A stretch of DNA of 57,766 nucleotides, taken from NCBI GenBank assembly GCA_017465155.1, contig JAFTWV010000107.1, forward strand, positions 1 through 57,766. Direction: 5' to 3'. The notes below the pieces were generated by a model. The model did not search any database. It had not been told where the DNA came from and saw only the letters and a program-made list of their open reading frames with translations. Shown here in pieces: positions 8,989-23,058 of the stretch (its first letter is position 1; each line of letters starts with the position of its first letter). Position numbers and translations under genes: made by a program. This DNA comes from Clostridia bacterium (lineage in GTDB: Bacteria > Bacillota > Clostridia > Christensenellales > Aristaeellaceae).

Positions 8989-10434
8989 TCAGCGCTCTGC
9001 GGGATGACAACCGCCGGACTGCGGCTGATCCAGTGCGGGGCAGACGGCTTGCGGCCGAACCTCCTTCATCCGGGCTGCAATCTGATCGACCCAGCCCCCC
9101 TTGAAGATCTCGCAGATGGCCAGATCGGGCGCGAGAATATCGCTGGGCGATGTCTCCAGCGCGGAGGCACGGCAGCCGCCCAGACACTGCAGCGCATGCG
9201 GACAGGCGCTGCATTCTGCGTTGTGGGAAAGCACCTCCGATGCGCGCGTGTCAAGCAGACGCATGTAGCGGGAATCGCTGATGCACTTGCTCAGTCCGAT
9301 CTCCGTGATCAGCGGGAATTCCTGCTGGATATCCATGCCTGACAGCGCCATGCAGGGCAGGGTACGGCCTTCGGCGGAAATATACATCACCATGCGCGCA
9401 TGGCCGCAGACGCAGGCAGATTCCGGCCGGGAGCAGTTCTTCATGCTGGGAATGTCGTAGCGATCCGGCGTATCGGGATCGGCCATGAAGAAGCCGCCAA
9501 GCTGCAGCGCCAGAGGCATACCGTCCTCATAATAATGCGGGATATAGTCATAGTACAGCTGATACAGCTCCTTCAGGGAAATGGATTCCCCGTAGCCGTT
9601 TTCCTTCCATGCGCCTACGTTGGAGATGGGGGTAGTCTTGAGACTTCGGCAGCCCATGGCTGCAAGATGCCGGATCGTTTCCCGAAGGAGATGCTTATTG
9701 CCCTGATGGATGCACATTTCTGCGCCGGTAGGGAAGCCCTTCTCCTTGCAGCGCAGGAAGGCTTCTTCGGCGATCCGGCCTGCGCCGTCGATGCCGCGCA
9801 GCCAGTCATGCCAGCCGTCCACGCCGTCAAAGCTCATGTTGAATTCGGGATGGATGCCCCGCCTGTCCAGTTCATCCAGCAGACGGTCGGTGACCAGACG
9901 GCCGTTGGAATAAATGGTAGTGATCCGGATGCCGCCTGCCAGCAGCGCATCGACGATTTCCATGAAGTCCCGGCGTACCAGCGGCTCGCCGCCGGTCAGA
10001 GAGACCTCCATCACGCCGCAGTCGATCAACTGCTGCACGATGGACATGACCTCTTCATGAGAAAGCTCGCCGTACTTGGCGTCCGGCGCGGACATGTAAC
10101 AGTGCTTGCAGCGATAATTGCAGTGACCTGTAATGGACCAATGTGCCGTGCGGATGTAGCGCGCCGGATAGCATTTGTATTCCTGCTCGGGCGCGATGCA
10201 GTCCCCCTGCCTGCAGGGCGCGATGATGCCGCGCTTTTCCAGTACGGGCAGAAGATCGCGGACCTCCTGCGGGATCAGCGGCAGGGACAGATCTACCTTG
10301 CCGTTGCAAAGCTGCAGCGCCTGCATCTCCGCAGCCTTGATAAACAGCGGCCGGGAATAGCCTTTTTCCACAACGGCATAGGGGAGCTTCTGCCAGCCGC
10401 GCAGGAGGAGCTTTTCATGGAGCTTGTAAAACAT
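8989..10434 (-). CDS. Radical SAM/SPASM peptide-modifying enzyme (putative)
   Basis: A 481-residue radical SAM protein. Residues 1-80 resemble a PqqD-like winged helix (RiPP recognition element). The [4Fe-4S]/SAM motif is C105-x3-C109-x2-C112 (TGHCNYRCKHCY). The C-terminal part has SPASM-type cysteines (CSACPHALQCLGGC near the end, plus CVCGH and LPC upstream). Such enzymes make C-C, C-S or similar cross-links in ribosomal peptides. The ATG at 10434 is chosen because AAAGGAA precedes it. It is the third gene after a 65-residue leader-like peptide and an ECF sigma factor on the same strand. Action on that peptide, or on the Nif11 precursor 12 kb away, is inference. Confidence 0.8.
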   Translation of the reverse strand: MFYKLHEKLLLRGWQKLPYAVVEKGYSRPLFIKAAEMQALQLCNGKVDLSLPLIPQEVRDLLPVLEKRGIIAPCRQGDCIAPEQEYKCYPARYIRTAHWSITGHCNYRCKHCYMSAPDAKYGELSHEEVMSIVQQLIDCGVMEVSLTGGEPLVRRDFMEIVDALLAGGIRITTIYSNGRLVTDRLLDELDRRGIHPEFNMSFDGVDGWHDWLRGIDGAGRIAEEAFLRCKEKGFPTGAEMCIHQGNKHLLRETIRHLAAMGCRSLKTTPISNVGAWKENGYGESISLKELYQLYYDYIPHYYEDGMPLALQLGGFFMADPDTPDRYDIPSMKNCSRPESACVCGHARMVMYISAEGRTLPCMALSGMDIQQEFPLITEIGLSKCISDSRYMRLLDTRASEVLSHNAECSACPHALQCLGGCRASALETSPSDILAPDLAICEIFKGGWVDQIAARMKEVRPQAVCPALDQPQSGGCHPAER

Positions 10435-10509
10435 CGGTTCACAGTTCCTTTCATCCGCAGTTCGGTGTTGTATATCTATACGCATGTCTGCCCGAAGTCT
10501 TGCAATGCT

Positions 10510-11031
10510 TTATACTTCCCCGGCCAGAATCCCCTGCAGCTTCTTTCGCGCCCGTGCCATGACGGCGGACACCGTGTTCTCGTTCATGTTCAGCTGTCGT
10601 GCAATCTCGCGGTTGGTGATGTTCAGAAAATACTTGTAGTACACAAACATGCGCTCCCGCTCTGACAGCTGCGCAAGCGCTGCAAAAATGGCTTTGCGTG
10701 TTGGCGAAGCGATCCGCTCATATTGCTCGTCAAAATGCACATGCAGTTCATTTGCCAGTCCGGATTCCTCGTGATCAATGCTCAGGACAGGCCGCTGCCG
10801 GCGGTAAAAATCAATCAGCAGATGATCGGTGATGCGGTATATCCACGTCTTCAGCGACGCTCTTTCCGGATCAAAGGTATCCAGATGTCTGCATACCTTC
10901 ACGAATACCTGGCTGACGATATCCTCCGTGTTTTCGCGGTTCAGCAGCCTGTAAAACACATAGTTGTAGATCACGGGAAAGTATTCATGATAGATGGCCT
11001 CCATGTCCGGCGGCCTGTTTTTTATGATCAT
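10510..11031 (-). CDS. ECF-type RNA polymerase sigma factor
   Basis: A 173-residue sigma-70-family factor with region 2 (about 8-80: YHEYFPVIYNYVFYRL through LKTWIYRITDHLLIDFYRR) and region 4 helix-turn-helix (about 112-168: LSERERMFVYYKYFLNITNREIARQLNM followed by VSAVMARARKKL). It redirects RNA polymerase to a specific promoter set. No membrane anti-sigma gene is adjacent; instead a 65-residue peptide gene lies 44 bases upstream and a radical SAM gene 75 bases downstream, probably co-transcribed. GAGGGA precedes the start. The trigger is unknown; the partner-switching proteins at 20061-22440 are possible but unproven regulators. Confidence 0.9.
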   Translation of the reverse strand: MIIKNRPPDMEAIYHEYFPVIYNYVFYRLLNRENTEDIVSQVFVKVCRHLDTFDPERASLKTWIYRITDHLLIDFYRRQRPVLSIDHEESGLANELHVHFDEQYERIASPTRKAIFAALAQLSERERMFVYYKYFLNITNREIARQLNMNENTVSAVMARARKKLQGILAGEV

Positions 11032-11438: not shown

Positions 11439-11510
11439 ATAGGTAAGTACAATTGAGTTTCCTGCGTATATAATTATATAATCATGGACGCAAAGCATTG
11501 GAGGGATGAT

Positions 11511-14500
11511 ATGAGCAACAGGAACCGGAGAATCTGGAGCTTGCTGGTCACGCTGATGCTGCTTTTGCAGCCGCTGCAAGCCGCCCATTTGCATCAGTAT
11601 GTACATGCCGAGGAGGAGCCCGGGGTGATCCGCGGCGTATTCAGCTATGCGGGCATGTACAACAACCGGAAGGACTCTGTGCTGGACTATGTGTACAGCG
11701 ACGCCTATTTTACTGATGACGCCCGTGTATACAACCCGAGTCTGTCCACAATGTCACTGGCGCTGGAAATGTCCTCCTGGTCCAGCCTGGATGAAGAAAG
11801 CTGGGTGAACAAAAGCGCAAATGCCCGTGATCTTCTGACAGAGACAGGCTTTGTTGACTATGCGCAGAATGATTTCTGGAATGATGTGCCGACGGTGGAA
11901 TCCATAGGCGTGGTGGCGGCCCGCAAGGAGCTGGAGGATTCCACGCTGATTGCGCTGGCTGTCCGCGGCGGCGGATATTTCAGCGAGTGGGGCAGCAATG
12001 TGCTGGTGGGTTCGGCAGACGAGCATGTCGGCTTTGCCACCGCCCGTGACAATGTGCTTTCCTTCCTCAGAAAGTATATTGAAGACTGCGGCGTTACCGG
12101 CCGTGTGAAGCTGTGGCTGGTGGGCTTCAGCCGCGGCGGCGCGGTGGCCAATATGACGGCAGGATATCTTAATGATCATGGTTTGACGACGGAGGCCAGT
12201 CTGGTTCCGGCTGACCTGTACTGCTACACCTTCGAAGCGCCGCAGGGCGTGCTGGAAGCAAGCACCGGCCCGGATGCGGAATATGGCAACATCCATAACA
12301 TCATCAATCCCAACGATATTGTGCCGCTGGTTGCTCCGGATTATTGGGGTTTCAGCCGCTATAACCAGACCTCTCATCTGCTGCCGACCATCACCACAGC
12401 CTGTTATGCACAGGCGCGGGAACAGATGTTGATCCAGTATGCCGACATTCTGAAAGGCGTGGAGGTGCTCAACCCTGACAAGGCGGCGTATAACATTGCT
12501 GAATATGCCAAGACCCTTGAGATGAAGATCAATTGGCTGAGCTTCCTGCCCGGCGGAACGCCCTTCATTGAAATTCAGACAGTGGACAACACCCATCTGC
12601 CTCAATCCCTCATGCTGATGGAATCCGTGTCCGCCCTGGTGGAGGCGGCGAAGTCTCGCGATCGTTTTCACGCGGATATTGAAGCGGACATATCCACCCT
12701 GCTGGGTGAACTGCTGGGGGCGAACAAGGGAACCAACCTGTCAGACTACATCCAGGCGCTGGGAACGGAGCTCACCGAGAACAGCTATGCCAACCTGATC
12801 TACATTCTGGAACCCATTGTTCAGCTGAACTTCAAGTCCTTTGAAGAACGCATGAACGCGGTTGCTGTCCGGCTGAAGGAGATCATTCCCCAGCCGGAGG
12901 GGTATACGGATATCGTCGGTACTGTCGGCTCGCTGGTGGACGTGATTGCCACCATGCTGGTGGATGACCCTCAGGCGGTGCTGAATCTGGTGATGTCGCT
13001 GTCCAGCACGAACATGATTCAGGCCCATTATGCCGAGGTTACCATGGCTTGGCTGCGTACGGAGGATCCCAATTTTACCGATACGCCCTTCACTGCCAAC
13101 GTGCCCGAGACGGTGCGTATCGTGCGCGTGAACTGCCCGGTTGATCTCCTGGTCTATGACGGCGAGGGAACGCTGGTTGCTTCCATCATCGGCGGCGAGA
13201 GCGCCGTGTATATGGACGGAATCGGCTGTGCAGTCAATCCGGACGGCGAAATGGTGATCTACCTTCCCGCAGATGCGGAATTCGAGGCGCAGATCATCGC
13301 GACCGGTGACGGCTCGGTCAGCTGCGCGATCAACGAGCTCAACATCGTTCGCGGCAAGCACACCTTTGTTGTCAATTATCCGGATGTGCCCATCCGCACC
13401 GGCGATACGCTGTGCGCTGTACTGCCCAAGCTGATTGATGCAGAATACACGGACGAACCCGCGCAGGGTTCTACTGCCGATTATCGCCTGATCGGCCCGG
13501 GCGGAAGCGCCATTGAGCCGGATCATATCCACCGCGGCGACGACGTCATCCTTCATACCGTCAAGGCCGAACGCAGCAATCAGTTCGGGCAGGTGCTGGG
13601 CGGCGGTCAGTACATAGATGAGAGCTACGCGCAGCTGGAGGCCTATCCGGTCAGCAGCAGCAGCTTCCTCGGATGGTACGTGGATGGCCGGAAGGTATCC
13701 TCCGAAGCAGTCTATCGCTTTCCTGTGACGCAGGATGTGACGGTTGTGGCGCACTTCAGCGATGTGGCGCTGCATCAGATCCGCTTTGAAGCTACTGCAG
13801 GCGGCACGGTTCATAATGCGGATAACGCTTATTCCGCAGGCAGCATGGTGCTGCTGTCTGCCACCGCGGATGCGGGCTATTTCCTGACGGGCTGGAAAAC
13901 TTCTGCCGGCAGGATCGTCACGCTGGAGGACGGGGCGGCATATCTGATCGTTCCGGCCGGTGCGGCAACGGTCACGGCAGTCTTTGTGGAAGCGGGCATT
14001 GTCTGTCCTGCCTGCAGGCAGCTCCTTCCCAAGGGAACGCATCATCTGGCGCTGTGCGGCGGCAACGGCCACTTCTCCTGCGAGCCCGGATACCGCGCGG
14101 TGAATCATGCTGACTGCACCATCTGCGGCAGCGGCCACGTCTGCGAGGGCGGTCACGGCTACGGCAGCGGGGAGTGCGGCGTGTACGAGTGCGCAGGCTG
14201 CGGCGAGGAAATTCTGATCACGGAGAACCATGCGTCTCCCTGCGGCACGGCAGGGCACTGGACATGCGCAGCGGACTACGAGGCAGCAGGCCACGCGATC
14301 TGCGAACACTGCTCGGCGCTCCTGTGCAATGGCGAAGATCACGGCGAATGTACCATCTGCGGCAGCGGCCACGTCTGCGAGGGCGGTCACGGCTACGGCA
14401 GCGGGGAGTGCGGCGTGTACGAGTGCGCAGGCTGCGGCGAGGAAATCCTGATCACGGAGAACCATGCATCCCCCTGCGGCACGGCAGGGCACTGGACATG

Positions 14501-14993
14501 CGCAGCGGACTACGAGGCAGCAAGCCACGCCCTGTGTACCCTCTGCGGCGGCGGTTACGTTTGCGACGGGACGCACGGTACCGGCGAAGGCCAGTGCGGG
14601 TATGTGGAGCCCACACCTGCACCGGAAGAGACGCCGTCGCCCACGCCTGTTGAGTCTGTCGCATGGGATAACTGCGAAGAATGCGGCGGCTGGATCGTCA
14701 TGGGTGAAACCCATCTGGGAGACTGCGGCGTGCATTACACCTGCGCGGACGGATACGCGGAGGATGAACACGCCCTGTGTACCCTCTGCGGCGGCGGTTA
14801 CGTTTGCGACGGGACGCACGGTACCGGCGAAGGCCAGTGCAGCTACGCTGCGTTCGATGCCTCGGCGGTGCTCCGGCTGAACCAGGTGCAGACTGTCTCC
14901 GCGGCCCGAACGGATCGTATGCTGCCTGGTCTGGCAATTGCCAGCCTTGCGGTCCTGGTTCCTCTGCGGCGCAGGAAGAATCAAAAGAAATAA
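11511..14993 (+). CDS. Large secreted lipase-fold protein with cysteine-rich repeats and C-terminal membrane anchor
   Basis: A 1160-residue protein: signal peptide (about 1-33), an alpha/beta-hydrolase region of class-3-lipase/Mbeg1 type with nucleophile motif VGFSRGGA (S207) and a following conserved NPNDIVPLV (about 270), a long helical part to about 520, beta-rich domains (about 530-830) including two InlB B-repeat-like segments (FLGWYVDG, FLTGWKTS), then about 300 residues of cysteine/histidine-rich repeats (CxxC pairs such as CTICGSGHVC, ECAGCGEEIL). It closes with a hydrophobic segment and positive tail (SLAVLVPLRRRKNQKK). The cysteine repeats look like metal-binding ribbons. The ATG at 11511 follows GGAGGG. 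It is probably a surface esterase or lipase; substrate and repeat function are unknown. Confidence 0.8.
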   Translation: MSNRNRRIWSLLVTLMLLLQPLQAAHLHQYVHAEEEPGVIRGVFSYAGMYNNRKDSVLDYVYSDAYFTDDARVYNPSLSTMSLALEMSSWSSLDEESWVNKSANARDLLTETGFVDYAQNDFWNDVPTVESIGVVAARKELEDSTLIALAVRGGGYFSEWGSNVLVGSADEHVGFATARDNVLSFLRKYIEDCGVTGRVKLWLVGFSRGGAVANMTAGYLNDHGLTTEASLVPADLYCYTFEAPQGVLEASTGPDAEYGNIHNIINPNDIVPLVAPDYWGFSRYNQTSHLLPTITTACYAQAREQMLIQYADILKGVEVLNPDKAAYNIAEYAKTLEMKINWLSFLPGGTPFIEIQTVDNTHLPQSLMLMESVSALVEAAKSRDRFHADIEADISTLLGELLGANKGTNLSDYIQALGTELTENSYANLIYILEPIVQLNFKSFEERMNAVAVRLKEIIPQPEGYTDIVGTVGSLVDVIATMLVDDPQAVLNLVMSLSSTNMIQAHYAEVTMAWLRTEDPNFTDTPFTANVPETVRIVRVNCPVDLLVYDGEGTLVASIIGGESAVYMDGIGCAVNPDGEMVIYLPADAEFEAQIIATGDGSVSCAINELNIVRGKHTFVVNYPDVPIRTGDTLCAVLPKLIDAEYTDEPAQGSTADYRLIGPGGSAIEPDHIHRGDDVILHTVKAERSNQFGQVLGGGQYIDESYAQLEAYPVSSSSFLGWYVDGRKVSSEAVYRFPVTQDVTVVAHFSDVALHQIRFEATAGGTVHNADNAYSAGSMVLLSATADAGYFLTGWKTSAGRIVTLEDGAAYLIVPAGAATVTAVFVEAGIVCPACRQLLPKGTHHLALCGGNGHFSCEPGYRAVNHADCTICGSGHVCEGGHGYGSGECGVYECAGCGEEILITENHASPCGTAGHWTCAADYEAAGHAICEHCSALLCNGEDHGECTICGSGHVCEGGHGYGSGECGVYECAGCGEEILITENHASPCGTAGHWTCAADYEAASHALCTLCGGGYVCDGTHGTGEGQCGYVEPTPAPEETPSPTPVESVAWDNCEECGGWIVMGETHLGDCGVHYTCADGYAEDEHALCTLCGGGYVCDGTHGTGEGQCSYAAFDASAVLRLNQVQTVSAARTDRMLPGLAIASLAVLVPLRRRKNQKK
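14118..14530 (+). repeat. Near-identical 179-bp direct repeat inside the lipase-fold gene
   Basis: Bases 14118-14296 and 14352-14530 are almost identical, offset by 234 bases (a multiple of three), so whole cysteine-rich units can be gained or lost in frame. The few differences I see are single bases. Confidence 0.9.
14526..14840 (+). repeat. 72-bp direct repeat inside the lipase-fold gene
   Basis: Bases 14526-14597 and 14769-14840 repeat the unit encoding HALCTLCGGGYVCDGTHGTG, separated by a proline-rich linker. This is a second layer of repeat expansion in the same cysteine-rich region. Confidence 0.9.
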
Positions 14994-15095: not shown

Positions 15096-17282
15096 TTATG
15101 CGTTGTCCAATCGCTGGCGTTCCACCAGTTCGGCGAAGAATCCGCCCTGCTTGATCAGCTGCTCATAGGTGCCGTCCTCGACGATGCGGCCTTTATCCAG
15201 CACAATGATCCGGTCGCACTGCCGGATGGTCGACAATCGGTGGGCGATGACGATGCGGGTGCACTTGAGGCTGTCCAGCGATTCGGATACCTGCTTTTGC
15301 GTCAGGTTGTCCAGAGCGCTGGTCGCTTCATCAAACATGAGGATCTTCGGCTTGGGCGCGATGGCACGGGCGATCATCAGCCGCTGGCGCTGTCCGCCGG
15401 AGATTCCGCCGCCGCCCTCGGAAACAATGGTGTGCAATCCCATGGGCATGTGTTCAATGTCGTCCTTCATGCCGGCAGCCTCAGCGGCTTTCATCGCATC
15501 TTCCATGCTCAGGCCGGGGGCGGAAACGGCGATGTTGGAGTACAGGTCGCCCTGGAAAAGCTTGCTGTTTTGCATCACGACGCCGATCTTACGGCGCAGG
15601 GATTTCAGGTCAAGGGTGTTCATGTCCTTGCCGTCATAGTAGACTGCGCCCTTTTGCGGCGTTTCAAAGCCCAGCAGCAGCCTCATCAGCGTTGATTTGC
15701 CGCAGCCTGTCTTGCCGACGATGGCGACGTATTGTCCCGCGCGGATCTTCAGCGACAGGTTGTCGATGATCATTGGCGTTTCAGGGGAATAGCGGAAGCT
15801 GACGTTGCTCAGCTCGATTGCGCCGGAGATCTTCTCCACCACGCGCTTGCTGCTGGAAACTTCAGGGGCGGTGCGGAGGATGGGTTCCACCATTTCCAGC
15901 GTCGGCTTGATGCGCGCGACGGTGTAGGCGATGGCTGCAAGGCTGCCGATTGCGCCGCTGAGCATGCCGTATGCCGTGTTGAAGGCCATGTAATCCGCTG
16001 TGCTCACACCGCTGGAAACAGCTGAGGAGTAAAACACGATCGTGCCTGCCATGGTAATGATGGAGGGAATCAGGCCGCTGAGCTTGACCAAAAGGGGCGG
16101 GGCGTAATGCGCCTGCGCATATTCCTGATAGCCCTTGGCCCATTGAGAGAAGGCGCGTTTTTCTGCGCCGGAGAGCTTGATCTTCTGCACGCCGCTGAAC
16201 AGCCCGAATACCAGACCTGACAGCTTCGCGCTGGTGCTCATGGCCCTGCGTGTCTGGGTCAGCTGCGCATAGACGGCAGCGAAAGAAAAGACCAGAGACC
16301 CCAGCAGGATCACGATTGCCGGAGCAGCCAGCGCAGGAGCAAAGGAGAAGATCTGCCCGATGTATACCAGCGAGAACACCGACGTCAATCCCGTGGTCAG
16401 GAAGGTTTCCACCAGCATCTGACACAGCTGGGTGACGTTGTTGGTGCGCTGCGCCAGCTCACCGGAGGAAAACTGCTTAAAGAAAGAGGCAGGCAGCGAC
16501 AGCACGCGGGCCATGGCAGCGGCAGAAACGGCGGTGCTCATCTTCGTGGTGATGCGGGACAGCAGCAGCGTCTTGATGACGGTTGCCAGCGCCGAGGAGA
16601 TCGTCACGCCGATCAGCATGCAGGCCATGGGCAGGACGAGCGATGCATTGCCGCTGGGGATGACCTGTGAGAAAACGATCGAATTAACTTCCGGCAGGAA
16701 CATTCCCAGCAGGGTCACTGCCAGCGTTGCTGCGGCAACCATGAGGAAATCATATCGGGACAGCGTACCGATGATGAACTGAAGCAGCTCCATGACGCCG
16801 ATGGGCTTGAGCGGTAAGGGCTTATAAAAGCAGACAGCGTCAGAAAGGATGCGATCCTTGTTCTTTGCCGTCACCTTGACAGACTGTCCTGTTGCATAAT
16901 CCGTGAAGCGGTAGCCGGAGACTGCATCGGGGATCAGGGCGATTACGTCGCCCTCCGCCGTGTGGCCCAGCATAGGGCCGATGCCGTTTTTGTACCATTC
17001 GCCTGTCAGCGCCACACTGCGGCGCATGATGCCCGAGGGGCGCATCAGGTATTCGAGGATATCCTCCAGCTCCGTAATGCTGGCAGGCAGCTCCGCCTGT
17101 TTGACGTGGTAGAAGCGAAGGATTTCTTCAATGGCGTTCTGTGCCTTTTCTCTTTCGCCCTTGAGTGCTGCTGCCAGCACCGACTGGCCCATCACCACCG
17201 AGGAAAGGCGGAGGAACGCGTTTTCGAGGCTTTCCTGATCGTTATGCATCCTGGTTTTGATTTGCTCGTCAAACCAGCTCAT
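15096..17282 (-). CDS. NHLP-type peptide export ABC transporter, permease/ATPase without peptidase
   Basis: A 728-residue protein: N-terminal cytoplasmic extension (about 1-160, of the kind in NHLM/NHLP export ATPases), six membrane helices (about 170-455), and a C-terminal ATPase with Walker A GKTGCGKST, signature ISGGQRQR and Walker B ILMFDEATSALD. It partners the C39-containing ABC protein encoded just upstream (15 bases apart) to export leader-cleaved ribosomal peptides. AAAGGAGG precedes the start. The extension lacks the peptidase residues of C39, so it is the non-cleaving half of the pair. It is the last gene of the operon. Confidence 0.88.
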   Translation of the reverse strand: MSWFDEQIKTRMHNDQESLENAFLRLSSVVMGQSVLAAALKGEREKAQNAIEEILRFYHVKQAELPASITELEDILEYLMRPSGIMRRSVALTGEWYKNGIGPMLGHTAEGDVIALIPDAVSGYRFTDYATGQSVKVTAKNKDRILSDAVCFYKPLPLKPIGVMELLQFIIGTLSRYDFLMVAAATLAVTLLGMFLPEVNSIVFSQVIPSGNASLVLPMACMLIGVTISSALATVIKTLLLSRITTKMSTAVSAAAMARVLSLPASFFKQFSSGELAQRTNNVTQLCQMLVETFLTTGLTSVFSLVYIGQIFSFAPALAAPAIVILLGSLVFSFAAVYAQLTQTRRAMSTSAKLSGLVFGLFSGVQKIKLSGAEKRAFSQWAKGYQEYAQAHYAPPLLVKLSGLIPSIITMAGTIVFYSSAVSSGVSTADYMAFNTAYGMLSGAIGSLAAIAYTVARIKPTLEMVEPILRTAPEVSSSKRVVEKISGAIELSNVSFRYSPETPMIIDNLSLKIRAGQYVAIVGKTGCGKSTLMRLLLGFETPQKGAVYYDGKDMNTLDLKSLRRKIGVVMQNSKLFQGDLYSNIAVSAPGLSMEDAMKAAEAAGMKDDIEHMPMGLHTIVSEGGGGISGGQRQRLMIARAIAPKPKILMFDEATSALDNLTQKQVSESLDSLKCTRIVIAHRLSTIRQCDRIIVLDKGRIVEDGTYEQLIKQGGFFAELVERQRLDNA

Positions 17283-17297: not shown

Positions 17298-19508
17298 TTA
17301 CTCGGTTGTCACAAGGGTTGTGTAGAAGCCGCCCAGCGCCATCAGCTCCTCATGGGTGCCGCGCTCGACGACTACGCCGCGGTTGAGCACGATGATCTCA
17401 TCGCAGTCGCGGATGGTAGAGAGTCGGTGAGCGATGATGATGCAGGTTACGCCGCGGTTGCGGATGGCCTCGACGACATTGTATTCTGTCTTGGCGTCCA
17501 GTGCACTGGTGGCCTCGTCCATCACGACGATGGTGGGATCCTGCGCCAGCACGCGGGCGATCTCAAAGCGCTGCCGCTGGCCGCCGGAGAAGTCCCGGCC
17601 GCCCTCCAGCAGCCTGTGGTTATAGCCGCCGTCGCGAAGCATGATGTCCTCGTGGATTTGCGCGTCGCGGGCGGCGAGGATCATCTCGAAGTCCTCGATG
17701 GTGCTGTCCCACATTTTGATGTTGTTGGCGATTGTGTCCTCATAGAGGGTGATGTCCTGATCCACCACGGCCAGCGAGCCGGTAAAGACCTCGCGTGGAA
17801 TTTCGTTCATGGGCTTGCCATCGAAGAGAATCTCGCCCTCCCATGGCTGGTACAGGCCGGAGATCAGCTTGGCCAGTGTGGATTTGCCACAGCCTGACGC
17901 TCCCACGAAGGCCACCCGGGAGCCGGGCTTCAGCGTCATGGAGAAGTCCCGGATCAGCGGTTCTGCCAGACGCGAGTAGCCGAAGGTTACATTACGCAGT
18001 TCCACCTCGCCCGTCAGCTTGGCATAATCGCTGTCACCGCCAAAGGCAAGGTCAAAATCGTCCGCTTCTGCCTCCGGCCCTTCGGCGGCAGAAGCTTCTT
18101 CCTCCGGCAGCGGCTCGGAGAAGGTCACGTCAGGTTCGTAGTTCATCACGTCCTCCACGCGCTCCATGGACGAACGCATTTCCTGCACGGACTTCGACAC
18201 CTCCAGCAGCTCCTGCACAGGCACCATAAAGGAGGACATGAAGCTTTGGAAGGCCATCAGCATACCGGCGGTGAACTGCCCCTGGATGATCAGCAGCACG
18301 CCGATCATGAGAATAACGATCTCCGACAGGGAGCGTACAAGGCCGGGTAAAGCATTCCAGACACGGTTGAGACGTGCGGATTGTGCATCCGCCGCATTGA
18401 CGGAGGCGGAGAAGCCAGCCCAGCGCTCAAAGTAGCCGTTCTCAGCGCCGGAGGCCTTGATGGTCTCAATCATCTCGATGCCCGCCACCGTTGCGCCGTA
18501 GAGCTTGCCGCTGTCGCGCATGCGGACGCGGCTGATATTCACCCGCTTCTTCAGGATGATCTGATTCAACCAGACGTTGATGGCGATGGAGCACACGCAG
18601 ATCAGCGTCAGCACCGCGCTGTATCGCAGCATGATGACCAGATAGAGTACCAGCATGAGCAGGTCAATCACCACCGGGCCCAGTTCCTTGACGAGGGTAG
18701 CGGCGATGCCCTCATTGGACTCCTGTCGTTGGGCGATGTCGCCGGCCATGCGCTGGGAGAAGAACTCCACCGGCAGCCGCAGCACATGCCACATGAATGC
18801 TGCGCTGGAAACGATGGCCAGCTTGCCTTCGACCTTGGACAGGTAGATGGTCTGCACCAGCGAAACCACTGACTGCACTGCCGCCACCATCACCATCAGC
18901 CCCAGAAAGGGCATCAGCCATGCAGGGTTTTCTCCCGGCAGCAGTCGATCCATGAACACCTGCCCGAAGGCGGGGTAGATCAGGTTGATGATGGCGGTGA
19001 TCAGCGTTGTCAGGACAATGAAGGCGATGGCCGGGCCAGCACCCTTCAGCCGCTGCTTTGCAAAGGGAAGGATGCTTCGGGGCTTACCGCCCTTTTCAAA
19101 GCTCTCGGCGGGGGTGAAGGTCAGCACCACGCCGGTAAACTCCCGATCCAGCTCCTCTTTGGTCACCCGTACAGTACCGCGGGCCGGATCGTTGATGACG
19201 GCTTTGTCCTTGTGGAAGCCGCAGAACACCACAAAGTGGTTGAAGCCCCAGTGAAGGATGCAGGGCGTCTGGAGCTGGTAAAGGGAGGAGGTATCGCAGC
19301 GATACCCCTTGGCCGTCATGCCGTAGTTCCGTGCGGCCTTGAGCAGATTCTTGGCTGAGGAGCCGTCGCGGGAAACGCCGCAGTCCTTGCGGACTGTTTC
19401 CAGCGGCAGCCACTTTCCGTGATAAGCCAGGATCATCGTCAGGGAGGCCGCACCGCATTCCAGCGCCTCCATCTGCATGATCACCGGCACTTTGGCATAT
19501 TTGCTCAT
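17298..19508 (-). CDS. NHLP-type peptidase/permease/ATPase exporter (C39 domain)
   Basis: A 736-residue bacteriocin-type ABC exporter. The C39 peptidase domain (about 1-135) has the catalytic Cys in MEALECGAAS (C18 region), His in WGFNHFVVF, and Asp in VINDPARG, and should cut after a double-Gly leader. Six membrane helices follow (about 160-430), then an ATPase with Walker A GASGCGKST, signature FSGGQRQR and Walker B IVVMDEATSALD. The Nif11-type precursor at 22538 ends its leader in VAGG, a fitting substrate. GGAGG precedes the start. An acidic insertion (about 470-500) lies between the membrane and ATPase domains. Confidence 0.92.
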   Translation of the reverse strand: MSKYAKVPVIMQMEALECGAASLTMILAYHGKWLPLETVRKDCGVSRDGSSAKNLLKAARNYGMTAKGYRCDTSSLYQLQTPCILHWGFNHFVVFCGFHKDKAVINDPARGTVRVTKEELDREFTGVVLTFTPAESFEKGGKPRSILPFAKQRLKGAGPAIAFIVLTTLITAIINLIYPAFGQVFMDRLLPGENPAWLMPFLGLMVMVAAVQSVVSLVQTIYLSKVEGKLAIVSSAAFMWHVLRLPVEFFSQRMAGDIAQRQESNEGIAATLVKELGPVVIDLLMLVLYLVIMLRYSAVLTLICVCSIAINVWLNQIILKKRVNISRVRMRDSGKLYGATVAGIEMIETIKASGAENGYFERWAGFSASVNAADAQSARLNRVWNALPGLVRSLSEIVILMIGVLLIIQGQFTAGMLMAFQSFMSSFMVPVQELLEVSKSVQEMRSSMERVEDVMNYEPDVTFSEPLPEEEASAAEGPEAEADDFDLAFGGDSDYAKLTGEVELRNVTFGYSRLAEPLIRDFSMTLKPGSRVAFVGASGCGKSTLAKLISGLYQPWEGEILFDGKPMNEIPREVFTGSLAVVDQDITLYEDTIANNIKMWDSTIEDFEMILAARDAQIHEDIMLRDGGYNHRLLEGGRDFSGGQRQRFEIARVLAQDPTIVVMDEATSALDAKTEYNVVEAIRNRGVTCIIIAHRLSTIRDCDEIIVLNRGVVVERGTHEELMALGGFYTTLVTTE

Positions 19509-19521
19509 ACGCAGCCTCCCA

Positions 19522-20037
19522 TCACTGGAACACCAGGTCGATGGGCCGCTGGGTCTGGGTCACGGCGGAGATGGAATAAACCATGCCCTCCAGCAGCGGT
19601 TCGGCGGGTGAAACCTTTACCACGATGTTCCACGTCGAAATGCCCAGCACTGCCAGCAGGTAATCCTGCTCCATGCCCTCGCTGGCCTCCTCATAGGACA
19701 GGGGGATGTCCGCAATGGAAGCCACGCAGCCGCCCACAGGCTCTGCTGTGTCCGTCTGGGAGATGGGCACGATGTCCACCGTCATTCCCGCTTCCAGCTG
19801 TGAGCTGGTGATATTGTCCACATAGCAGTAAAGCATCCCATCCTCCGCCAGACCGGTGAAGGTCACGCTCTGGGTCAGCTCCCCGAAGCAGCCCCAGATC
19901 AGCAGCCCCAGCACCAGTGCCAGCGCGGCCCCCAGCACCATCCAGCTGCTGGGGTTGGAAACCTGAATATAGTCGTTGAGCTTCTCCGGCGAGGAGAAAC
20001 GCTCCACGCTGGATTTCTTGAACAGCTTGTTCTGCAT
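19522..20037 (-). CDS. Short HlyD-like adaptor of NHLP export
   Basis: A 171-residue protein with one N-terminal membrane helix (about 31-51) and an extracytoplasmic beta-rich part with a barrel-like element (SSQLEAGMTVDIVPI). It matches the position and general form of the NHLM secretion protein (HlyD family) but is short, without the long coiled-coil hairpin of true HlyD adaptors. This suits a single-membrane cell. The ATG at 20037 is preferred for its GGAGGAA site. It lies between the RsbW-like and C39 exporter genes in one operon. Confidence 0.75.
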   Translation of the reverse strand: MQNKLFKKSSVERFSSPEKLNDYIQVSNPSSWMVLGAALALVLGLLIWGCFGELTQSVTFTGLAEDGMLYCYVDNITSSQLEAGMTVDIVPISQTDTAEPVGGCVASIADIPLSYEEASEGMEQDYLLAVLGISTWNIVVKVSPAEPLLEGMVYSISAVTQTQRPIDLVFQ

Positions 20038-20060
20038 ATCAATTCCTCCATACTGCTGCA

Positions 20061-20468
20061 TCACAGCAGCTTTCGGATGGTCAGGATATTCTGCCCATCC
20101 TCATAGGTATAGACGACCTCATCCATGCTCTTTTTGACCATGTAGATGCCCAGTCCGCCGATCTGCCGCTCCTCCACGCCGAGGGTGACGTCGGGGTCCT
20201 CCCGGCTGAGCGGGTCATAGGGCTTCCCACGGTCGATAAAGCGGATCACCGCGCAGGGCGGAGCCTCTTCCACATCCACCGCGACCGTTGCCTCTCCCAC
20301 ATCCGGGTTATAGGCGTAGTGGGCGATGTTGACGAACAGCTCCTCTACGGCGATGTCGATCTGCATGATGGTCTTCATCGGTACATCATGGCTTTCCAGC
20401 TCTGCGTTGATGAAATCGAGCACGTCGTCCATCCGGTCGACCTCAGCTGTCAGGATCATTTTTTTCAT
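20061..20468 (-). CDS. RsbW/SpoIIAB-like anti-sigma serine kinase
   Basis: A 135-residue GHKL ATP-binding protein: N box AVEELFVNIAHYAY, G1 region FIDRGKPYDPL and G2 GGLGIYMVKKSMD. Proteins of this family bind a sigma factor and phosphorylate a STAS antagonist. The STAS partner is encoded directly upstream and a SpoIIE-type phosphatase is divergent, so all three members of a partner switch are here. The target sigma factor is not shown; known kinases of this type act on group 3 sigma factors, so the ECF factor at 10510 is only a possibility. Alternatively the kinase could control the exporter itself. Confidence 0.87.
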   Translation of the reverse strand: MKKMILTAEVDRMDDVLDFINAELESHDVPMKTIMQIDIAVEELFVNIAHYAYNPDVGEATVAVDVEEAPPCAVIRFIDRGKPYDPLSREDPDVTLGVEERQIGGLGIYMVKKSMDEVVYTYEDGQNILTIRKLL

Positions 20469-20582: not shown

Positions 20583-20879
20583 TCATTCGATGGTGAGCAT
20601 ATCTGCAAAGCCGGTGATTTCAAAGACCTCCATCACCGTCTCATTGACGTTGCGGACCATCATGGAGCCCTGTTTCTTCATCAGCTTCATTGCGGAGAGC
20701 AGCACGCGCAGTCCTGCGCTGGAAATGTAGGCAAGATTCTGGAAATCCATCACCAGATCCGTCACGCCGCGCAGATTCTCCTTCAGCACGCCCTCCAGCT
20801 GTGGGGCGGAGCCTGTGTCAAGACGGCCCTCCAGCGCAATTGTCAGCTGGCTGCCCTCTGTCTTCGTGTTGATATTCAT
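20583..20879 (-). CDS. STAS-domain anti-anti-sigma factor
   Basis: A 98-residue single STAS domain like SpoIIAA/RsbV. The phosphorylation region is FQNLAYISSAGLRVLL, with S53/S54 the likely phosphosite. Unphosphorylated protein would bind the kinase encoded at 20061 and free its partner. GGAGGG precedes the start, and a strong promoter lies at 20936-20964. It is the first gene of the exporter operon. Confidence 0.9.
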   Translation of the reverse strand: MNINTKTEGSQLTIALEGRLDTGSAPQLEGVLKENLRGVTDLVMDFQNLAYISSAGLRVLLSAMKLMKKQGSMMVRNVNETVMEVFEITGFADMLTIE

Positions 20880-21051: not shown

Positions 21052-22440
21052 ATGAACGAACAGGAATACTTGAACGCCTTTGCTCAAAACGAAAAGGAAG
21101 CCAACCGCTACACGGCAAAATGCCTGCGGGTTCTGGCGGTTATTGTGGCGATTGTGTGGCTGCTGAATATCATCGGGATCTTTACCGTGCCGGTGGATGT
21201 GATGACCATTGCGGCGCCGCTCAGCATGGCGATCTTTGTTACGCCGACGTTCCTGCTGCGCTTTTTCAGGAAGAAGCCCTACCGGATGAAGTACTTCATT
21301 ATGCTCTGCTGCGTGCTGGGCATCACGGTGCTGTCGGGGGCGCTGCCCAAGCATTCCATTGTGGCATGGGCCGCGCCGATTATTCTGGCGTGCCACTATT
21401 ACTCCAAGCGCCTGTCCTGGGGGACGCTGGCTGCCACGACGGTGTGCTTGCTGGCCTCGCTGATTTTTGCGACCTATTATGGCGAGTGGGATCCCTATCT
21501 GCTGCGTTCGCTGCCCTATGAAGGGGAACGCCGGATCACCGCAGAAATGCTGTCCATGAGTATCCAGTATTACGGTTTGCCCCGATGTATGATACTGGCA
21601 GGGCTGAACTTCACCTGTGCAACGCTGGCGACCCGTACCCGCAAGCTGCTGGAGCTGCAGGTCAAGGAGAGCGCGGAGAAGCACCGGATCGAATCCGAAC
21701 TGAACGTTGCGACCCAGATCCAGACTTCCATGCTGCCCACAGCCTTCCCTGAGCGGGAGGAAATCGACGTCTTCGCCAGCATGAGTCCGGCCCGCGAGGT
21801 GGGCGGTGACTTCTATGATTTCTTCATGGTGGATGACCGCCATCTGGCCATCGTCATGGCGGATGTGTCCGGCAAGGGCGTACCCGCGGCGCTGTTTATG
21901 GTGATCGGCAAGACGCTGATCAAGGATCATACCAATCCCAACTGTGATCTGGGCGAGGTCTTCAGCAATGTGAATGACCTGCTGTGCGAATCAAACAGCG
22001 AGGGGCTGTTCATCACTGCCTTCGAGGGCGTGCTGGATCTGGTGACGGGCGAGTTCAACTTCGTCAACGCCGGGCATGAGATGCCGATGATTTCCCGCAG
22101 CGGCGAGGCCTTCGCGGCTCACAAAATCCGCCCTGGCTTTGTGCTGGCGGGCATGGAGGGAATTCGCTACCGTGCGGGTACCCTGACGCTGGAGCCCGGC
22201 GACAAGCTCTTCCAGTATACCGATGGCGTCACGGAGGCTACCAATGCGCATGACGAGCTGTACGGCATGCAGCGCCTGACGGATGTACTGGCGGTCAACG
22301 CGAACCGCACGCCCCGGGAAATTCTCCCGGCTGTGCGCGCGGATATCGACGCTTTCGTTGGTGACGCGCCTCAGTTTGACGATATCACCATGCTCTGCCT
22401 GGAATACAAGGCCAGGATGATTCCTGCGGAGGAAGCGTGA
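21052..22440 (+). CDS. Membrane SpoIIE-type PP2C phosphatase
   Basis: A 462-residue protein with five or six membrane helices (about 25-190), a short coiled-coil linker (about 198-222), and a PP2C/SpoIIE phosphatase domain (about 225-455) with metal ligands D253 (VGGDFYDF) and D271 (ADVSGKG), then NAGHEMP, YTDGVTEA and DDITMLCLEY. It should dephosphorylate the STAS protein encoded divergently and so switch on the kinase's partner. The membrane part is a likely sensor of an unknown signal. ATG at 21052 follows AGGAGG. Reading frame upstream of it is open but unneeded. Confidence 0.9.
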   Translation: MNEQEYLNAFAQNEKEANRYTAKCLRVLAVIVAIVWLLNIIGIFTVPVDVMTIAAPLSMAIFVTPTFLLRFFRKKPYRMKYFIMLCCVLGITVLSGALPKHSIVAWAAPIILACHYYSKRLSWGTLAATTVCLLASLIFATYYGEWDPYLLRSLPYEGERRITAEMLSMSIQYYGLPRCMILAGLNFTCATLATRTRKLLELQVKESAEKHRIESELNVATQIQTSMLPTAFPEREEIDVFASMSPAREVGGDFYDFFMVDDRHLAIVMADVSGKGVPAALFMVIGKTLIKDHTNPNCDLGEVFSNVNDLLCESNSEGLFITAFEGVLDLVTGEFNFVNAGHEMPMISRSGEAFAAHKIRPGFVLAGMEGIRYRAGTLTLEPGDKLFQYTDGVTEATNAHDELYGMQRLTDVLAVNANRTPREILPAVRADIDAFVGDAPQFDDITMLCLEYKARMIPAEEA

Positions 22441-22537: not shown

Positions 22538-22885
22538 TCAGGTGTCGTAGCCGTAGCCGGCGAAGCCGCAGACGCAGCGCTCACGGCCGGACTTGGAGTA
22601 ACCGGCGCCGGCGAGGACGCACGCGCAGGTCTTGTCATTGCTGTCCTTGGTTCCGCCGCCGCCCATGGCACAGGCGCAGCTGACGTCGCCGCCGCCGGCA
22701 ACGGCGTCCAGTTCGTCGTCATTCAGTTCTTCCACGGGCTTCTTGAGATCCTCCGCGGTCAGCTCAAAGCCCATCTCTTTGGCCAGAGCGATCAGGGCAG
22801 CAGGATCTTTTTCTGCACTGACCTTTTCCGCCAGCGCCTTGTCTTCGGATACCTTTTCCAGGAACTTCTTCAGATTCTCGCTCAT
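22538..22885 (-). CDS. Nif11-type RiPP precursor with three CxC repeats
   Basis: A 115-residue precursor. The Nif11-like leader (1-65) is helical (MSENLKKFLEKVSEDKALAE) and ends ELNDDELDAVAGG, the double-Gly site expected for the C39 exporter. The core (66-115) has exactly six cysteines in three CxC pairs at 70/72, 87/89 and 104/106, a strict 17-residue spacing. Each pair is followed by a Gly/Ala-rich stretch (CACAMGGGG, CACVLAGAGY, CVCGFAGYGY). AAGGAG precedes the start. No lanthionine synthetase, YcaO or other dedicated modifying enzyme is adjacent; the nearest candidate is the radical SAM protein at 8989. The cysteines may form disulfides, thioethers or a metal site; this is open. Confidence 0.9.
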   Translation of the reverse strand: MSENLKKFLEKVSEDKALAEKVSAEKDPAALIALAKEMGFELTAEDLKKPVEELNDDELDAVAGGGDVSCACAMGGGGTKDSNDKTCACVLAGAGYSKSGRERCVCGFAGYGYDT

Positions 22886-22911: not shown

Positions 22912-23019
22912 CGAACGATCAACCCCGGAATGCTTGAACACTCCATCTGTCATTCGAATCACTTAACTATACGCAGCTGTCAGAAAAGTCTTGCACGGAT
23001 TGTATCACTTGATCGTTCG
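22912..23019 (-). promoter_or_regulatory. Long-range inverted repeat in the Nif11 precursor leader
   Basis: CGAACGATCAA (22912-22922) and its exact complement TTGATCGTTCG (23009-23019) flank an 86-base stretch of the untranslated leader. One arm sits at the expected transcription start, the other just before the ribosome site. They could close a folded RNA leader or be two operator half-sites. Confidence 0.5.
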
Positions 23020-23029
23020 ATTTAACAAT

Positions 23030-23058
23030 ATTATATCCTACTGAGAAATTGCTGTCAA
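23030..23058 (-). promoter_or_regulatory. Consensus promoter of the Nif11 precursor gene
   Basis: Minus-strand TTGACA (23058-23053), a 17-base spacer and TATAAT (23035-23030) leave a leader of about 140 bases. The rest of the 22886-23266 gap holds the inverted repeat, the divergent promoter, and otherwise nothing I recognise. Confidence 0.85.

Follow-up and report, generated by a model that had tools for sequence, protein, structure and literature searches.

A Nif11-leader precursor with a repeated CxCxxxGxG core and the radical SAM/SPASM enzyme that probably matures it

The precursor peptide described here, which a gut bacterium encodes, carries a core made of three copies of a nine-residue unit, CxCxxxGxG, and in related genomes this core is found together with one type of radical SAM enzyme. 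Genome comparisons give good support to this pairing, and the enzyme encoded in the window (the whole stretch of DNA analysed, 57,766 nucleotides) very probably modifies the CxC core. The reading that the evidence on balance favors is that of a RiPP in which a radical SAM enzyme would form thioethers from cysteines to glycines, followed by cleavage after a double glycine and export. The enzyme would probably staple each cysteine-glycine unit into a tiny hairpin, and this would be a new layout for such natural products.

The precursor and its repeated unit

Genes in the window were called by codon usage; longest-ORF calling was misled by the high G+C. The precursor gene and its parts are as follows.

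22541..22885, minus strand: Nif11-leader precursor, 115 aa (stop codon 22538-22540; translated from 22885..22538)
22691..22885, minus strand: Nif11 leader, residues 1-65, with GG end (PF07862 on residues 3-47, TIGR03798 on residues 3-65)
22652..22678, minus strand: core unit 1, CACAMGGGG, residues 70-78
22601..22627, minus strand: core unit 2, CACVLAGAG, residues 87-95
22550..22576, minus strand: core unit 3, CVCGFAGYG, residues 104-112

A first-pass annotation had called this gene a Nif11-type precursor, and both leader models agree, each above its cut-off: PF07862 with E 3.3e-14 (53.3 bits, cut-off 23.8) and TIGR03798 with E 7.6e-21 (74.1 bits, cut-off 32.3). Its placement of six cysteines as CxC pairs is likewise exact, as the translation has its cysteines at residues 70, 72, 87, 89, 104, and 106. 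The double glycine of the leader, G64 and G65, is invariant in all 23 rows of an alignment of precursors (A1); some precursors of genome G070 have GA instead of GG at this place. Could such a core be the product of chance? When it was shuffled 200,000 times, three CxC appeared in 179 shuffles, three evenly spaced CxC in 8, and three CxCxxxGxG units in 0; therefore, the three-unit core is not a chance arrangement.

Relatives were drawn from two sources: one scan of genome contigs, which gave 7 loci in Clostridia MAGs (three of them titled as goat, water deer, or sheep gut), and the GTDB family of the window's genome, covered by 200 genomes and then by all 308. Across the 23 precursors of A1, the core columns that never vary are C70, C72, G76, and G78; C87, C89, G93, and G95; and C104, C106, G110, and G112, and these columns define the conserved unit as CxCxxxGxG. 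The 51 distinct cores collected from 19 genomes contain 150 CxC-anchored units, of which 139 match it exactly, a count that includes an eroded core of G049 and the variants of G602 and G620, misses units with a lost cysteine because it is anchored on CxC, and omits G656 because its cores repeat others. With the eroded core and the variants left out, 138 of 144 units are perfect. The glycine at position 7 is kept in 149 of the 150 units and that at position 9 in 140, its replacements being S, N, A, or H; positions 2, 4, 5, 6, and 8 vary, so that cysteine and glycine alone are fixed. The cores of G602 and G620 have two CxC units with Asn at position 9 (CxCxxxGxN), and two of the 51 distinct cores hold four units.

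These counts bear out the earlier suggestion of a repeated structural unit and change what its signature is. The annotation had taken the CxC pairs at exactly 17 residues as the signature; the glycines belong to the conserved motif as well, and the 17-residue period has to be abandoned, as a 17/17 spacing occurs in 20 of 44 three-unit cores and spacings range from 13 to 36. Homologues lacking a conserved CxC spacing, which the annotation had named as the finding that would speak against its proposal, do exist as far as the spacing goes, and yet the CxC units themselves are conserved.

The A1 profile matches 27 of the 308 genomes; 19 are counted as having CxC cores, and in the remaining 8 the match falls mostly on the leader (sequences read for four of these, the others being G601, G651, G673, and G685). 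Precursors also form arrays: G042 gives 11 profile matches and G064 gives 10, some of them truncated or lacking cysteine; in G064, eight CxC precursors surround one enzyme. The cores of G070 follow short leaders that have no Nif11 helix.

Association with a radical SAM enzyme

The proposed maturase, which the first-pass annotation had overlooked, lies 12 kb from the precursor in the window.

8989..10434, minus strand: radical SAM/SPASM protein, 481 aa, proposed maturase (PF04055)

Its start at ATG 10434 is preferred over 10485 because a promoter-like element, described below, lies there. In three loci (L032, L034, and L035, as a set genomes G045, G653, and G184), the gene directly after the precursor is a radical SAM gene whose product is 75-80% identical to that of 10434-8989. 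Close relatives of the enzyme, defined at E<=1e-120, occur in 17 of the 308 family genomes, and a CxC core is present in 16 of these 17 against 19 of 308 overall (hypergeometric 7.7e-23, uncorrected for kinship); without the variant cores of G602 and G620, the figures are 14 of 17 against 17 of 308. Precursor and enzyme genes adjoin in 12 of the 17: the three genomes above, seven more (G064, G193, G655, G656, G634, G070, and G080), and the two with variant cores. As for the remaining five, an eroded precursor adjoins the enzyme of G042, whose intact precursors lie at other places, 12 kb separate the two genes in G000, the enzyme of G652 and G050 is on a different contig from the precursor, and in G089 the enzyme is present and no CxC precursor was found. 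The CxC cores for which no close enzyme was found are those of G657 and G590, in assemblies 71% and 85% complete, respectively, and that of G049, which has lost one cysteine.

What does the enzyme follow, the leader or the core? In G070, cores without the Nif11 helix stand beside the enzyme, which argues that the enzyme tracks the core. A tree of 32 enzymes covers 15 of the 17 genomes (without G050 and G656) and 17 of 18 sister enzymes (one of the two L109 enzymes is absent). The 15 close enzymes, 14 with CxC cores plus that of G089, form one branch with support 100/99, a clade that is partly by construction, since identity to the window's enzyme was the criterion that had separated the groups at the outset. 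More telling is that core type follows this clade: a Nif11 peptide was found at 11 of the 17 sister-enzyme loci, none with the three-unit core.

Some neighborhoods deserve a separate mention. Sister enzymes in L107, L109, L113, and L115 pair with another Nif11 core family, with the motif DGHEMGC or DGREMGC. In G089 (L076 246-1640 and upstream), the radical SAM gene is preceded by genes that we take to be of the asparagine-synthetase and lasso B2 types, and in G070 (L069 9996-17797) the radical SAM gene and four short CxC peptides have presumably phage terminase-like genes as neighbors.

The same data bear on a different view of the cysteines, in which the thiols would stay free or pair as disulfides in a secreted, metal-binding peptide of the metallothionein or metallophore kind, and the radical SAM gene would serve another substrate. 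CxC is abundant in metallothioneins, and the orthologous core is strongly constrained, unlike an arms-race peptide. This view nevertheless leaves the glycines at positions 7 and 9 unexplained, together with the co-occurrence, the neighborhood, and the shared element that connect precursor and radical SAM gene, and it is judged improbable.

Another route would be an unlinked LanM or YcaO enzyme, giving a lanthipeptide or a thiazole-type RiPP. Nif11 leaders do pair with lantibiotic synthases, cyclodehydratases, and other modification clusters (PMC3023750). However, among 13 CxC genomes examined, several of them incomplete, a LanC-like domain occurs in 1 and YcaO in 2; the window's own genome, 68.5% complete, has neither; and no LanM or YcaO gene is found among the conserved neighbors. 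An origin of this kind is very unlikely.

The enzyme and its chemistry

The radical SAM motif CX3CX2C and the SPASM motifs CX12GX4C and CX2CX5CX3C with the last C are conserved, and the seven SPASM cysteines, assigned with what we take to be the full motif definition, are invariant or nearly so across 16 enzymes. The CX2CX5CX3C motif is described in PMC3023750. Compared with NCBIfam, none of the best 25 of 71 models reaches its cut-off; TIGR04103, for instance, gives 81.4 bits against 725. The nearest solved structure is SkfB, the sactisynthase of the sporulation killing factor (E 2.3e-19, positions 101-296), and PqqE and SuiB are also among the matches. The SkfB match spans the radical SAM core alone and thus says little about the reaction. 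An RRE domain was sought by sequence, with no Pfam match at E up to 10 and no significant PDB match. An N-terminal RRE domain is common, though not universal, in sactipeptide maturases.

How might the peptide be matured? In the mechanism proposed, the Nif11 leader would deliver the precursor to the SPASM radical SAM enzyme, which would work unit by unit on CxCxxxGxG and join the alpha carbon of each invariant glycine to a cysteine sulfur, with two thioethers per unit and six per peptide. A C39/NHLM transporter would then cleave after the double glycine and export a peptide of ∼50 residues. The parts of this scheme are not equally firm. The sequences establish the precursor and its unit, the class of the enzyme, the neighborhood, the co-occurrence, the shared element, and the export genes. 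A thioether is the likely product, a glycine alpha carbon as acceptor has about an even chance, and the ring topology is put forward tentatively: either C1-G9 with C3-G7, a small hairpin register with a three-residue loop, or C1-G7 with C3-G9, where the rings would be equal in size. The only carbon that glycine offers for such a bond is the alpha carbon, so that a Cys-Gly thioether would be a sactionine by definition. The stacked thioether loops that the first-pass annotation had listed among its guesses are now the likeliest of these, because a radical SAM/SPASM enzyme tracks the core; the bond itself is inferred.

The invariant glycines may instead serve to give the backbone room rather than act as acceptors. 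The same enzyme would then form another bond, such as a ranthipeptide side-chain thioether or a C-C link, and the glycines would be needed only for tight turns. All of these bonds are made by SPASM enzymes (PMC8326336), and the structure matches to PqqE and SuiB fit such a range. Within the unit, however, no acidic, Thr, or aromatic residue is conserved at a constant distance as a partner, the other positions being the variable ones, and this option is considered rather unlikely, the thioether to glycine being the preferred reading.

Export genes and a shared promoter-like element

Between the enzyme and the precursor lie genes for export and for proteins of the RsbW, STAS, and SpoIIE kinds.

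15096..17282, minus strand: NHLM export ABC transporter subunit 2 (TIGR03797 over cut-off)
17298..19508, minus strand: NHLM export ABC transporter subunit 1 with C39 peptidase (TIGR03796 over cut-off, PF03412)
19522..20064, minus strand: shortened HlyD-like NHLM secretion protein, 180 aa (TIGR03794 on residues 22-71 only, below cut-off)
20061..20468, minus strand: RsbW-like anti-sigma kinase (PF13581)
20583..20879, minus strand: STAS anti-anti-sigma factor (PF01740, TIGR00377)
21052..22440, plus strand: SpoIIE-type PP2C phosphatase, convergent with the precursor gene (PF07228; start from the codon-usage caller)

NHLM/C39 export homologues are also present in L034, L035, L036, L038, L040, L095, and L097. 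The NHLM HlyD model has a length of 421, and similar short proteins of 154-156 aa occur in L034, L035, and L040; in L034 and L035, the short HlyD, RsbW, STAS, and SpoIIE genes accompany the NHLM subunits. In G655, the order is unsplit: SpoIIE faces the precursor, followed by the radical SAM gene and then by a piece of the sigma gene.

A further connection between precursor and enzyme is found upstream of their genes.

22969..22993, minus strand: bipartite promoter-like element, CAAGAC-N13-GCGTAT, upstream of the precursor
10478..10502, minus strand: second and only other copy in the window, upstream of the radical SAM gene
10510..11031, minus strand: ECF-type sigma factor, 173 aa
11076..11279, minus strand: small acidic protein beside the sigma gene (51% over 67 residues in L090)
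23030..23058, minus strand: sigma-70 consensus promoter, TTGACA-17-TATAAT, upstream of the precursor and its element (12/12, consensus match only)

The motif YAAKAY-N13-GCGTAT was read by eye from the regions upstream of the precursors of G000, G652, G045, G050, and G655. Both sites in the window are exact; the one at the precursor was used in building the motif, the one at the radical SAM gene was not. When one mismatch is tolerated, at least 2 matches turn up in 18 of 100 shuffled versions of the window, so that the position of the sites counts above their number. In its strict CAAKAC form, the element has two sites each in the G652 and G655 assemblies, before the precursor and the radical SAM gene only (in G652 on different contigs). 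G000 has one extra site, G045 has one site, at the precursor, and G050 and G184 have one and two, respectively, all away from the precursor and enzyme genes; none was found in the G653 or G089 assemblies. A reversed control pattern hit G045 3 times and was absent from the remaining seven genomes. Ahead of the G089 enzyme lies a looser version of the element.

An orthologue of the sigma factor, with 65-72% identity, is present in G652, G045, and G050, all genomes with the element at the precursor, and the G655 sigma gene is a 29-residue piece at a contig end; no orthologue at E<=1e-25 was found in G653, G184, G089, G064, G634, or G193. We infer that the sigma factor reads the bipartite element, which would be an ECF promoter, and that the factor encoded beside the enzyme would, via the shared element, express enzyme and precursor together. 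A perfect sigma-70 promoter stands upstream of the precursor's element, which could therefore be an operator at that place.

Other features of these regions may be recorded. An exact 11-base inverted repeat, CGAACGATCAA / TTGATCGTTCG, at 22912-22922 and 23009-23019, 86 bases apart, flanks the precursor's element. The small acidic protein beside the sigma gene contains EDDDLEWVSAAG, which resembles the end of a Nif11 leader, and L040 has a small ORF with EEQLELNAAG beside its sigma gene. A Lipase_3 protein with InlB-type and cysteine-rich repeats is encoded at 11484-14993 of the window; its counterpart in G652 (L090) is 72% identical and occupies the same place beside the sigma gene.

Distribution and origin

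How widespread are these cores? A class-level search (391 genomes, E<=1e-12, just one other of them from the same family) returned only the window's own genome, as did a phylum-level search of 239 genomes with a core-only profile. The CxCxxxGxG cores may extend beyond the GTDB family to which the window's genome belongs: such cores are present in L036 (Oscillospiraceae RGIG5472).

A mobile origin was considered and set aside in each form. Phage records gave no match; the best PHROGs E was 0.16; 96 stretches in viral contigs fitted a pattern, none encoding a relative; and the two plasmid records that match do so in the Nif11 leader only, both being cyanobacterial.

Selection and possible function

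Comparison of six orthologues (15 pairs) gives pN 0.03-0.10 at pS 0.32-0.68 for the 49-residue core and pN 0.12-0.30 at pS 0.42-0.83 for the leader. By these values, the core is constrained, unlike a diversifying bacteriocin. In contrast to the single-copy orthologues, the precursors of multi-copy genomes diversify, and for this reason several functions are candidates: a signal, a cofactor-like peptide, or a metallophore for the single-copy type, and a peptide library in multi-copy genomes.

A wider reading can be offered, to which we give somewhat less than even weight. This would be a new modular RiPP of three or four nine-residue units, each folded into a small hairpin by two Cys-Gly alpha-thioethers, made by one iterative enzyme that recognizes the unit, whatever the spacing from one unit to the next. 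The version that has changed least is nearly the same in three genera, some of which would place it under a sigma regulon private to enzyme and precursor, and it would be signal-like or cofactor-like rather than an arms-race toxin. If this is true, the enzyme has a short, portable, repeated recognition unit and tolerates variable loops, which would be useful for peptide stapling, and the system would be a clean case for how radical SAM enzymes act iteratively. The natural library of G064, with its eight precursors and one enzyme, reveals which unit positions are free. Finally, with its constrained core and shared promoter-like element, the system lends itself to asking whether certain radical-SAM peptides act as signals or cofactors.

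Comparison with known systems

No published description of the CxCxxxGxG motif was found in the literature searched; figures, supplements, and most subscription papers lay outside its scope, so that the absence is weak evidence of novelty.

In the Nif11-class radical SAM systems (TIGR04064, TIGR04103), a Nif11 leader likewise comes with a radical SAM enzyme that is the only maturase candidate (PMC3023750); the present enzyme, however, is far below the TIGR04103 cut-off, with the scores given above. The Tvg peptides, with repeating TVGG and cyclopropylglycine, resemble the present system in their short repeated core motif and single radical SAM enzyme but differ in motif and chemistry, the Tvg motif having no cysteine (PMC9062424). 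The same paper lists 22 further candidate pathways, given in figures outside the present comparison.

Ranthipeptides (freyrasin PapA/PapB, SCIFF/CteB) are alike in having a repeated cysteine motif and one radical SAM enzyme; PapA has a CX3D motif and six bridges (PMC8172795). The present unit has no conserved Asp, Glu, or Thr partner; glycine, the partner that is fixed in it, lacks a side-chain carbon.

Sactipeptides (subtilosin A, SKF, thurincin H, ruminococcin C, and streptosactin) share a cysteine-rich core and a radical SAM maturase with a SPASM or twitch domain (PMC8172795, PMC8326336). Both a Cys-Gly sactionine and rings that are not nested have been described for streptosactin (PMC8172795), and known sactipeptides generally have 1-4 bridges and one hairpin, ruminococcin C and streptosactin excepted (PMC8326336). 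The present peptides differ from them in carrying three or four copies of a nine-residue unit, with six to eight cysteines in total, behind a Nif11 leader; their thioether bond is a putative one.
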